DNA of 64,000 nt from Streptomyces sp. CMB-StM0423 (GTDB taxonomy: Bacteria > Actinomycetota > Actinomycetes > Streptomycetales > Streptomycetaceae): NCBI RefSeq assembly GCF_002847285.1, contig NZ_CP025407.1, positions 4,124,501-4,188,500 on the forward strand, in the 5' to 3' direction. A program made the translations under genes and the position numbers. The notes under the pieces are model-generated. The model saw nothing but the letters and a program-made list of their open reading frames with translations. It was not told where the DNA came from and made no database searches. Below are positions 5,129-47,555 of the stretch, one piece after another (within the stretch, counting starts at the first letter, position 1; each line of letters begins with the position of its first letter).

Positions 5129-5573
5129 GACTTACCCTGCCCCAATCCGGCGCGGGCCGCGCCGCTTGACGAACATTGCTGGGCCCGGCTGACCGTGGCA
5201 CCCATCGGTGCAACGAGCACCCCGGGACCCCGGTTCCCGTCAGCGTACGGCGACGAATCGGACCTCGTGCCCTCGGGTCTACCACCTTCGCCGATCGCCC
5301 CGGAACCCCCCGGGCGGCGCGTTACGCCGTCCGGGCGTTTCACGTGAAACCAGACCCGGGCCGCCCCGCGGCGGCCCGACGCTCTCCTCAACCGTTTCAC
5401 ACATCGCCGACCGGCGCCGTCCTGCCGGGAAAGAGCGCAACCGCGTCCGGGCTCCTCAGCCGGGCCGCACCCACGAAGAGCGCGGGGCGCCGGGCGCACA
5501 ACAAAACGACGGAAGGCTCCCCGCACCGGTGACTTGCGTCACCCGGGCCGGGCACCTTCCGTCGATGTCTGTG
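5129..5573. other. Intergenic gap: TerD promoter region and a parS site
   Basis: This 445-bp gap between the TerD start and tRNA-Leu holds the parS site at 5337-5350. Short open frames exist on both strands but have no convincing start, codon bias or recognisable motif. I saw nothing else. Confidence 0.6.
5337..5350. other. parS site 1
   Basis: Perfect GTTTCACGTGAAAC palindrome, the ParB-binding centromere site of Streptomyces. It is intergenic and lies about 36 kb from oriC; it is the only site found on the gyrA side of the origin in this window. Confidence 0.95.
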
Positions 5574-16032: not shown

Positions 16033-16932
16033 ATGACGGACCAGGCGCCGGGAGGGGCGGAGAGACCGGCCGAGGACAGCGGGCTGCCGGGCTGCTACCG
16101 GCACCCGGACCGCGAGACCGGCGTGCGCTGCGTCCGCTGCGACCGGCCCATCTGCCCGGAGTGCATGATAAGCGCGTCGGTCGGCTTCCAGTGCCCCGAG
16201 TGCGTCCACGGCGGCTCGGGTACGGGCTCCGCGCCGGGCGCCGCCGCGCCCCGTACGCTCGCGGGCGGCGTCATGTCGGAGGACCCGCGGCTCATCACCA
16301 AGATCATCCTGGGTCTCAACCTCGCGGTCTTCCTCGCCGTGCTCACCGGCGGCGACCGGGTCAGCGACCCGATGCTCCTCGTCGGGAAAGCGATCTTCTC
16401 CTTCGGCGGGCCGCTCGAAGGCGTCGCAGAGGGCCAGTACTACCGGCTGCTCAGCTCCGTCTTCCTGCACGAGGAAGTCGCCCACATCGTGCTGAACATG
16501 CTGGCGCTGTGGTTCCTCGGGCCGCCGCTGGAGGCCGCGCTCGGCCGGCTGCGGTTCGTCACGCTCTACGTGCTCTCCGGCCTCGGCGGCAGCGCGCTGT
16601 TCTACCTGGTCGCCGCGCCCAACGACGCCGCCCTCGGCGCCTCCGGCGCCATCTTCGGCCTCTTCGGCGCCACCGCGGTGCTGGTGCGCCGGATGAACTA
16701 CGACATGCGGCCCGTGCTGGTGCTGCTGGCGATCAACCTGGTCTTCACCTTCACCTGGTCGGGCATCGCCTGGCAGGGCCACATCGGCGGGCTGGTGATC
16801 GGCACGGCCGTCGCGTACGGGTTCGTGCACGCGCCCCGCGACAAGCGGGTCCTGGTGCAGCGGGCGGTGGCGGCGGCGGCGCTGCTGGCGATCGTCGCGG
16901 TGGTCGTGATCCGCACCCTGCAACTGACGTAG
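16033..16932 (+). CDS. Rhomboid-family intramembrane serine protease with N-terminal zinc finger
   Basis: 299 aa. Residues 20-60 form a B-box-like zinc-binding module (CYRHPDRETGVRCVRCDRPIC, then CPECV). A rhomboid domain with about six membrane segments follows. The catalytic serine is in LGASGAIFGLFGA and the catalytic histidine in GHIGGL. It cleaves membrane substrates; the target is unknown. It is convergent with crgA across a gap holding DnaA boxes. Confidence 0.94.
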   Translation: MTDQAPGGAERPAEDSGLPGCYRHPDRETGVRCVRCDRPICPECMISASVGFQCPECVHGGSGTGSAPGAAAPRTLAGGVMSEDPRLITKIILGLNLAVFLAVLTGGDRVSDPMLLVGKAIFSFGGPLEGVAEGQYYRLLSSVFLHEEVAHIVLNMLALWFLGPPLEAALGRLRFVTLYVLSGLGGSALFYLVAAPNDAALGASGAIFGLFGATAVLVRRMNYDMRPVLVLLAINLVFTFTWSGIAWQGHIGGLVIGTAVAYGFVHAPRDKRVLVQRAVAAAALLAIVAVVVIRTLQLT

Positions 16933-17243
16933 CGCCCGCCGCGGCGGGCCTCGTAACCTCCGGGCCGCAGCCGCGTTGAGAGGGGTGGGGCAAGCAGCCA
17001 CGCCCGAAGTTGTCCACAGGTAGTCAGCGACCCTGTGCGTACCGTGGGGACAGCCGTTCGATATCGAACACCCCTGCGTTTTCCTTGACAGGTCGCGGAA
17101 TCACCGCTGGTCCGGACGGTGTACCGCGGTCGGACCGGCGTCAATGCCACTGAGGTTATCCACAGATCTTCTGCTTTCTGCACAGCATGTGGATGACCTG
17201 TGGATAACTCTGCCCGCGGCGGGCCGCGAGGGGGTGGCGGTGG
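16933..17243. other. Convergent gap with a DnaA-box cluster
   Basis: Between the 3' ends of the rhomboid gene and crgA lie four DnaA-box-like sequences: TTGTCCACA at 17010-17018, TTATCCACA at 17156-17164, TGTGGATGA at 17188-17196 and TGTGGATAA at 17199-17207 (the last two read on the minus strand). Three are exact matches to accepted consensus forms. GC-rich short hairpins flank the stop codons (16934-16949). No gene is visible. Confidence 0.75.
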
Positions 17244-17501
17244 CTACTTCCACTGCGTGGAGACGACGAACCCCGCGAGGATGAAGCCGAAGCCGACCAC
17301 GATGTTCCAGTTGCCGATCGCTTCGAGCGGCAGGTCCCCGGTGGTGACGTAGAACACGACGATCCAGGCGAGTCCGACGACGAACAGCGCCAGCATCAGC
17401 GGCGCCACCCAGCTCCTGCCGGTGCCAGACAGTTTGAACTCGCCCGACTTCGCCGGCGGCGGGGTGTAATCGGCCTTCTTACGGATCCGTGACTTCGGCA
17501 C
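17244..17501 (-). CDS. crgA: CrgA, small cell-division membrane protein
   Basis: 85 aa, two membrane segments (about residues 34-53 and 65-82) after a basic N-terminal tail beginning [15 protein letters not shown], the family signature; it ends VVSTQWK. In Streptomyces CrgA delays septation and in mycobacteria it links FtsZ, FtsQ, FtsI and CwsA. The GTG at 17501 follows GGAGAG. It is divergent from the DUF881 gene. Confidence 0.96.
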
Positions 17502-40640: not shown

Positions 40641-41541
40641 GGAGACCGCCTCCTGGTGCTCTCGGCCCTTGCCGGCTCGGTTGGTGTGGGGGACCAGTCT
40701 GACGCACGGCACCGACACAGGGGGCAGGTCGGGGTCAACTCGTCGCTGCCGCTCTTGGAGGCCGTCGACCGCACTTGTGCACAGGCCCCGCTTCGAAGCG
40801 GATTCCGAGCTAGCTACGTGTAGAGGTAGTAGTAGGGCCTGTGGAAACCGTGGAAAACCCTGTCTGCGCAGGTCAGCTCGTGAATTTTGCCCACAGGCGG
40901 GTTGGGGACGAAGAGTGGATAACCCGCTGTTCCTGTGGACGATGCCCGGCTGTACACAGGCCGTTCACAGGCGGGGGCCACTTAGCCACAGCTCCATCCC
41001 CAGAGTTACCCGGGTTTCTGCACAGCCAATCCTGCCTCTGGATGTGACGGCTTTCACTCGACCCGGTGAAGGGGCGCGTTGCGTTGCCGAACAGTGGACA
41101 AACTTGTGGACAGGCTGTGTACAGAGCGGGGTTTTCTGTGGGTGAGTGGTCTTCCGCGGTGGACAGCGCTCGGCGCCGATCGGGCCGGTGGACGGTGTCC
41201 ACAGGTTGTGGGCAACGCTCGCCCACAAATCCACACCCCGGTGAGCTGCGCGGACGCGAGTTGTCCAGACCGCGTCCACACCCGCCCGTGGGTAACTCAC
41301 CGATCCCCAGGGTGTGGACGGCGGAAAAGCCACCGAGGTGTGGAGAAGTGCCTGTTCAGGCCCGGGAATCGAACAGCGGGCGGGGGCTCGGCTGTTCGGG
41401 TACGTGCCGGGGGCGGCCGGACGCGTACGGAAGACCTGTGCAGAACCGGCTGCCGGAGGACGCGTGGGGCCCCGGGAGGCGCTGTGGAGCGGCGCGGGGC
41501 GGGGTGTGGGGTGTGGGGCGTACGGAACGGCGGCGCGGCCG
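40641..41541. other. oriC, chromosomal replication origin
   Basis: 901 bp between dnaN and dnaA, packed with DnaA-box-like 9-mers on both strands: 40775 TTGTGCACA, 40840, 40887 TTGCCCACA, 40914, 40934, 40982 TTAGCCACA, 41093, 41105, 41195 GTGTCCACA, 41207, 41227, 41261 TTGTCCAGA, 41272, 41313 and 41339 (start positions). Most differ from TTGTCCACA or TTATCCACA by one base. No coding frame here looks real. Density falls off after 41350. Confidence 0.96.
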
Positions 41542-47454: not shown

Positions 47455-47470
47455 TGTTTCACGTGAAACA
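47455..47470. other. parS site 2
   Basis: Perfect GTTTCACGTGAAAC at 47456-47469 with one extra palindromic base on each side. It lies between rsmG and the chosen parA start. Confidence 0.95.
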
Positions 47471-47533: not shown

Positions 47534-47555
47534 TGTGGATAAGGAATCATCCACA
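47534..47555. promoter_or_regulatory. Inverted pair of DnaA boxes before parA
   Basis: TGTGGATAA (47534-47542; reads TTATCCACA on the minus strand, exact) and TCATCCACA (47547-47555, one mismatch) face each other across 4 bp, 37-58 bp before the parA ATG. This suggests DnaA could bind the parAB control region. Confidence 0.6.

Follow-up and report, generated by a model that had tools for sequence, protein, structure and literature searches.

The 311-bp gap at positions 16933-17243 of the window (by which we mean the whole 64-kb stretch of Streptomyces sp. CMB-StM0423 DNA that was analyzed, at 4,124,501-4,188,500 of a single 8.03-Mb contig) lies between two convergent genes, one for a rhomboid-family protein on the forward strand and crgA on the reverse strand, and contains a group of DnaA boxes that is real, deeply conserved and constrained in its spacing. 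We consider it very likely that DnaA binds this gap and likely, by analogy, that the locus regulates initiation of replication. We propose, as a reading that we hold to be probable, that the gap is a non-coding control locus, which would bind DnaA outside oriC and thereby determine the amount of active DnaA available for initiation.

Exact DnaA boxes in the crgA-rhomboid gap

A sequence-only reading of this DNA had reported four DnaA boxes in the convergent gap, three of them exact, and both counts hold with an exact box defined as TTRTCCACA, the fourth box departing from this pattern by a single mismatch (Table 1). The same reading had found no exact box in oriC, which is borne out by the dnaN-dnaA gap about 24 kb away, where we count 11 boxes with one mismatch (positions 40775-41347) and none that is exact. 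Downstream of box 2 the weak box M, with its two mismatches, and the reverse boxes 3 and 4 form a head-to-head triplet at 0/-12/-23, while the weak partners of box 1, which are discernible in relatives, are badly worn in the window copy. The spacer between boxes 1 and 2 also contains a perfect 12-bp palindrome, TTCGATATCGAA, at 17057-17068. The nearest named relative of the CrgA encoded here, among the best 80 of 539 loci, is that of S. aculeolatus, with 96% identity.

Table 1. Features of the crgA-rhomboid gap, its flanking genes and oriC, in window coordinates
Feature	Position	Strand	Basis
Rhomboid-family membrane protease gene, left flank	16033..16932	+	Pfam PF01694 Rhomboid, 1.4e-34
DnaA box 1, TTGTCCACA, exact	17010..17018	+	
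Box 1-box 2 spacer; start-to-start step of 146 bp in the window	17019..17155	.	
Degenerate copy GTCGGACCGGCGTCAAT of the 17-mer (consensus GTCAYACCGGYGTCAAY), candidate site for a second protein, 10 bp before box 2	17129..17145	+	
DnaA box 2, TTATCCACA, exact	17156..17164	+	
Weak box M, TTCTGCACA, two mismatches	17176..17184	+	
DnaA box 3, TCATCCACA, one mismatch, faces M at +12	17188..17196	-	
DnaA box 4, TTATCCACA, exact, 11 bp from box 3	17199..17207	-	
crgA, cell-division protein gene, right flank	17244..17501	-	Pfam PF06781 CrgA, 2.1e-29
oriC (dnaN-dnaA gap), 11 one-mismatch boxes, 0 exact	40719..41541	.	dnaN and dnaA by Pfam

Exact boxes number four in the window, against 0.10 expected from shuffled sequences, and 71 in the 8.03-Mb genome, against seven matches to the reversed control pattern. 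The crgA-rhomboid gap is the only site in this genome with three exact boxes so close together, an arrangement for which the genome-wide density gives an expectation of about 9e-5 per genome within 311 bp; the box density, whose comparison with the genome at large the sequence-only reading had made a test of its claim, is above background. Exact boxes are also in excess around oriC, with 11 of the 71 lying within 125 kb of it against 2.2 expected (three of these 11 being the ones in the crgA-rhomboid gap), a radius that was chosen after inspection of the data, with an excess at all six radii tried.

Several further groups of DnaA boxes and other sites were observed in this genome and its relatives. 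The window contains eight perfect parS sites, GTTTCACGTGAAAC, at 5337, 47456, 47712, 50562, 52663, 52717, 62679 and 62749, and between those at 47456 and 47712, upstream of parA, an exact reverse and a one-mismatch forward DnaA box lie 13 bp apart at 47534-47555. Six tandem pairs of exact boxes, spaced by exactly 18 bp, are scattered elsewhere (L001, L002, L005, L007, G000:C1:5814275 and 6216020), five of the six having ACCGGC between the boxes. Another convergent pair, TTGTCCACAG...CTGTGGATAA or the reverse of it, also recurs, about 90-110 kb from the crgA element; at L119:1501-1534 it lies between reading frames that by eye resemble a short-chain dehydrogenase and KptA, and similar pairs occur in G024, G033, G048, G052, G080 and G083.

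Conservation and internal plan of the element in Streptomyces and its family

We then compared the window gap with those of 77 relatives, which derive from the 80 loci with the best CrgA matches of 539 and so lean towards close CrgA relatives, three of the 80 having been set aside as their loci contained no rhomboid gene. At least three exact boxes are found in 77 of these 78 gaps (three in 59 and four in 18), with L020, the exception, having two exact and two one-mismatch boxes. The retention of the boxes in relatives, another point on which the sequence-only reading was open to refutation, is therefore evident, and because of it the gap boxes are not attributable to chance. Wherever an exact reverse box facing box 2 was found, which was the case in 77 gaps, box 2 takes the form TTATCCACA. 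Two loci (L043 and L055) have the entire block of boxes turned around between crgA and the rhomboid gene. One locus in this set, L032, is titled Streptosporangium nondiastaticum; its crgA and rhomboid genes fall among those of Streptomyces in tree order and it is probably misnamed.

Across the family, 199 of 200 genomes have a convergent pair of exact boxes at one site or another, with matches to the reversed control in one genome, and 93 of the 200, spanning 8 of 17 genera, have the stricter form TTATCCACAGATC...TGTGGATAAC; these counts, like all our conservation counts, come from related genomes that are not independent of one another. Elsewhere in the family, eight regions (L121-L128) that were picked by the box pair itself, and that come from three further genera and six genomes, likewise have the pair between crgA and a rhomboid gene. 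One of these genomes, G102, has three copies of the crgA-cluster-rhomboid arrangement (L122, L123 and L124) within about 22 kb, reflecting either duplication or an assembly artefact.

Read from the rhomboid side, the element has a common plan of box 1 (+), spacer, box 2 (+), the weak box M (+) and the reverse boxes. M lies 21 bp after box 2, a position at which many relatives have a TTTTCCCCA-like sequence, and the reverse boxes follow at 31 and/or 43 bp; after box 1, weak partners are found at +23 (forward) and +33 (reverse). Weak partners thus follow each of the strong forward boxes at similar offsets (+21/23 and +31/33), which gives the element the look of two halves laid out alike. As DnaA boxes the partners score poorly: at the offset most often used they have 3.2-3.6 mismatches on average, where the background median is 6.7, and in 25-49% of the gaps they have two or fewer.

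Helical phasing of the two strong forward boxes

The start-to-start step between boxes 1 and 2 varies mostly by helical turns, with values of about 147, 158 and 168 bp. Among the 75 gaps with two forward exact boxes it is 145-149 bp in 53 and 155-159 bp in 15, the remaining seven having steps of 113, 115, 138, 167, 170 (twice) and 177 bp. A separate scan of 394 family genomes, in which steps of 140-170 bp were allowed, matched 241. Among the 149 listed matches that were parsed (one of two G440 rows having been dropped, and the G015 match lying elsewhere than at that genome's crgA element), the step is 146-150 bp in 112, 156-161 bp in 29 and 167-169 bp in eight, with none at 151-155 or 162-166 bp. 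Put in terms of phase, 28 of the 37 listed matches outside the main mode are in phase with it, nine are intermediate and none is out of phase; the period is only loosely fixed by these 149 matches, values from 9.5 to 11 bp fitting about equally well. A tree built from crgA and rhomboid gene DNA requires 13 or more switches of spacing class, and 11 of 12 changes fall within 2 bp of whole 10.5-bp turns from 147.5 bp (binomial P of about 0.002, for changes taken by eye from one tree and a center set after the data were seen). Such helical steps are not what insertions of random length should produce, whereas a loop between proteins bound at both ends would be expected to give them.

A second conserved motif at a near-fixed distance from box 2

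Alignment of the gaps revealed a further conserved stretch upstream of box 2, GTCACACCGGCGTCAAC, and within the genus the corresponding 17-mer GTCAYACCGGYGTCAAY, which is not a DnaA box, is present as a single copy in 73 of 121 genomes, with no match to its reversed control. The window genome is among the 48 in which the exact 17-mer is lacking, its own copy being degenerate. Where we could compare coordinates, the 17-mer falls inside the listed box element in 12 of 12 genomes, and with a search that allowed 5-20 bp it precedes TTATCCACAG by 9-11 bp in 71 of the 73 (10 bp in 56, 11 bp in 14 and 9 bp in one). The bases between the 17-mer and box 2 vary, so that it is the distance rather than the sequence that is kept, as is expected if two proteins touch. 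A related constraint is seen in the occurrence of GTCANACCGGNGTCAA in 45 of the 78 gaps, always at -27 or -28 from box 2.

The consensus of the 17-mer, GTCACA-CCGGC-GTCAAC, is a direct repeat with an 11-bp period. Operators published for MtrA read GtnAcC-n5-GTnAcn in Streptomyces and comprise GTCACAgcg repeats in mycobacteria, as excerpted from PMC13189361. By eye, the 17-mer fits these in length and in most of the fixed bases, and the window copy is without the first half-site. We offer the 17-mer strictly as a lead, a possible MtrA operator; other OmpR-type sites and AdpA sites were also weighed as candidates for it. In S. venezuelae MtrA is stated to bind oriC and dnaA, and the main text of the same paper does not name crgA (PMC5487470).

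DnaA boxes downstream of crgA across the class

Of 197 genomes taken from across the class, 34 contain an exact convergent pair at some position; 16 of the 34 belong to the genus, leaving 18 of 181 others. With crgA itself as an anchor, we then searched for CrgA in 61 different genomes of other families (two lists of 36 and 30 with five shared); G213 gave no match, and G319 was left out, its locus L109 having been brought in by the box pattern. In the 59 resulting loci, representing 37 other families, we counted boxes that depart from the exact pattern at no more than one base. Over the 700 bp downstream of crgA (40,159 bp in all) there are 152 of them, which compares with 10 upstream of the gene (40,701 bp) and with 7.3 expected from shuffled sequences. 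A box lies within 300 bp downstream of crgA in 55 of the 59 loci, 47 have at least two boxes and 39 an exact one, whereas four (L150, L176, L183 and L185) have none within 700 bp downstream. Five loci (L144, L149, L152, L155 and L181) come from genomes known beforehand to hold an exact pair somewhere; without them 140 downstream boxes remain in 54 loci, 50 of which have one within 300 bp.

The geometry of these boxes downstream of crgA is not random across the class. Among the forward-reverse pairs at 9-13 bp in the 59 loci, 18 of 25 are at 10 bp; forward-reverse pairs at 23 bp occur 13 times and tandem steps of 12 or 13 bp 31 times, and no forward-reverse pair is found at 14 bp. The recurrent plan is one forward box facing reverse boxes at 0/10/23 bp, and 12 of the 59 loci have the complete triplet when each box is allowed one mismatch. 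In 18 genomes from 15 families the core of this arrangement, TCCMCANTGKGGA, occurs once in 15 and twice in three, always including the crgA site, with a single match to its reversed control (in G204); as these genomes were chosen for having the pair beside crgA, the count speaks only to the rarity of the core elsewhere. The strict 10-bp head-to-head 19-mer TTNTCCMCANTGKGGANAA is found in none of 296 genomes sampled from the phylum, which include nine of the genus and 17 further members of the class. Of the 18 pairs at 10 bp, 12 have a sequence that this 19-mer would match, and since the genomes of those 12 lie outside this sample the zero reflects rarity, not absence from the class; Streptomyces itself has a looser form of the head-to-head module.

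The rhomboid gene is convergent with crgA in 22 of the 31 loci viewed in detail, and boxes occur within 600 bp in eight of the nine loci where no rhomboid gene was found beside crgA. In L134 the gap is only 8 bp long, and the boxes there must therefore fall inside the neighboring reading frame. The M/box 3/box 4 triplet has counterparts in other families of the class, to which Streptomyces adds two strong boxes and the second conserved motif at its near-fixed distance from box 2.

Comparison with known DnaA-control sites

Three clusters of DnaA boxes outside oriC, H69, H24 and D78, were reportedly described in S. coelicolor by Smulczyk-Krawczyszyn et al. in 2006, and deletion of D78 is said to have led to more frequent replication. 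The window locus likewise has several strong boxes that lie outside oriC yet near it, and belongs with such extra-oriC clusters on that count. We take crgA (SCO3854) to be on cosmid H69, in which case the crgA-side gap may be the H69 cluster. A second group of boxes in the genome analyzed here, two exact and three with one mismatch, is found in the gap between the genes for prephenate dehydratase and seryl-tRNA synthetase about 120 kb away on the other side of oriC (L103:1866-2164, G000:C1:4284865-4285163), and is a possible counterpart of D78. A review cites Smulczyk-Krawczyszyn 2006 (J Bacteriol 188:6184) for the S. coelicolor clusters and describes these and similar extra-oriC clusters in B. 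subtilis as datA-analogous sites that repress untimely initiation (PMC5742627).

Among the control sites of E. coli, DARS stimulates the release of ADP from DnaA, and datA, which has an IHF site between its essential boxes, stimulates hydrolysis of DnaA-bound ATP. We located DARS1, DARS2 and datA in the K-12 genome by their gene neighbors. The bioD-uvrB gap (DARS1) and the rppH-mutH gap (DARS2) each have a core of 0/-14/-26; in datA, two forward boxes are separated by a step of 162 bp and a reverse box comes 12 bp later. The window element shares with DARS the topology of a forward box (M, with two mismatches) facing two tandem reverse boxes, whereas its spacing of 12 and 11 bp departs from the 14 and 12 bp of DARS. 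More generally, the step from the forward to the first reverse box is 14 bp in E. coli DARS, mostly 10 bp across the class and 12 bp in the window, and that between the reverse boxes 12, mostly 12-13 and 11 bp, respectively. With datA the element shares two forward boxes roughly 1.5 hundred bp apart (162 bp in datA and 146 bp in the window) followed by a reverse box. Having the same topology with other spacing, the element is not filed by us as either a DARS or a datA. According to published accounts, the DARS2 core is conserved among gamma-proteobacteria related to E. coli (PMC4245941), the opposed boxes I and II of DARS let DnaA molecules meet head-to-head (PMC8682772), and the spacing of the datA boxes is constrained (PMC4585315).

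The kind of site is therefore a known one, DnaA-box clusters near oriC being on record in Streptomyces, whereas its class-wide reach, its phasing and the second motif look new in a limited literature search: we found no description of the phased two-part plan, the 17-mer or the class-wide boxes downstream of crgA in what the open-licence literature searched has to offer.

Alternative explanations

That the cluster is a chance aggregate of common 9-mers has next to nothing in its favor, given the genome-wide expectation of about 9e-5 and a deep conservation that comes with spacing rules; it is refuted by the conservation already. The inverted repeat might instead specify an RNA hairpin or a terminator common to the two convergent genes, and indeed the stretch from box 2 to box 4 folds well as RNA (z of -3.8). 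However, base pairing next to the 9-mers is about as frequent as independence would predict, the arms of the head-to-head pairs across the class differ by 1.4 bases on average against 1.47 on random re-pairing, and box 1 has no partner in such a structure. With no covariation, no Rfam match up to an E-value of 1 and no terminator-like site in a simple scan of the gap, we reject the structured RNA or terminator reading despite the good fold, and regard it as highly improbable.

Alternatively, DnaA at the gap might affect its neighbors, either as a roadblock or by regulating the 3' end of crgA (and of the rhomboid gene), and thereby link initiation to septation. In favor of this, the boxes stay 3' of crgA over the class, even at eight of the nine loci with no rhomboid gene found alongside. 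Yet the gap is convergent, the inverted block of L043 and L055 is easier to reconcile with a site that works in either orientation than with a one-sided roadblock, and linkage to oriC accounts equally well for the position; crgA is near oriC here, and the placement of the boxes 3' of it may be mere linkage. Moreover, a simple scan finds no sigma-70-like promoter in the gap, in line with the view of the sequence-only reading that promoter control of either neighbor is less likely, and we consider local regulation unlikely. Even less probable, in our estimate, are sites mainly for chromosome organization or segregation, with DnaA serving as an anchor near oriC and parS: the locus is near oriC, in a window with eight perfect parS sites and with another DnaA-box pair between two of them, but the gap itself contains no parS site with up to two mismatches. 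Of what the sequence-only reading had suggested, titration or a datA- or DARS-like role is best supported, by the conservation and the unique triplet of exact boxes, whereas the link to CrgA that it raised is at most a possibility: the boxes do stay 3' of crgA over the class, but with crgA near oriC here they perhaps owe this to linkage only.

Proposed function and implications

In the control-locus reading that we prefer, the strong boxes would take up DnaA first, and DnaA bound at box 1 and at boxes 2-4 would meet via a loop of the roughly 147-bp spacer, from which the helical steps in spacer length would follow. On the triplet of M, box 3 and box 4 DnaA would assemble head-to-head. Lying 24 kb from oriC, the locus would be doubled soon after initiation and could then hold more DnaA, lowering the chance of re-initiation. 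The locus may act like DARS or datA, or may merely hold DnaA, the last being the simpler guess. Several observations count against the control-locus reading. In the window the 17-mer, M and the weak boxes that accompany box 1 are all degenerate, and such weak partners are poor boxes in general; four of the 59 loci from other families lack a box within 700 bp downstream of crgA, only 18 of 181 class genomes outside the genus contain an exact convergent pair, the strict 19-mer is missing from the 296 genomes sampled from the phylum, and the genomes compared are related to one another. Taken together, the conserved arrangement of sites suggests an old, mostly unstudied switch for replication timing.

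A more speculative extension, to which we attach rather little confidence as a whole, is that an ancestral head-to-head DnaA module downstream of crgA is the actinomycete counterpart of DARS or datA, and that the looped form of Streptomyces adds a second operator, at a near-fixed distance, for a response regulator of the OmpR type, with MtrA as the best guess. If true, a division-linked signal through MtrAB would converge with DnaA on the same stretch of DNA, next to a division gene, and the two would together decide the start of replication. The element also prompts the question of whether head-to-head DnaA modules have arisen more than once.

To our knowledge, the limitation of DnaA is poorly understood in actinomycetes as compared with E. 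coli. One conserved element, present throughout Streptomyces and recognizable in many other families, offers a defined target for the study of initiation, and marks a place where initiation, division (through CrgA) and possibly MtrAB signaling could meet.
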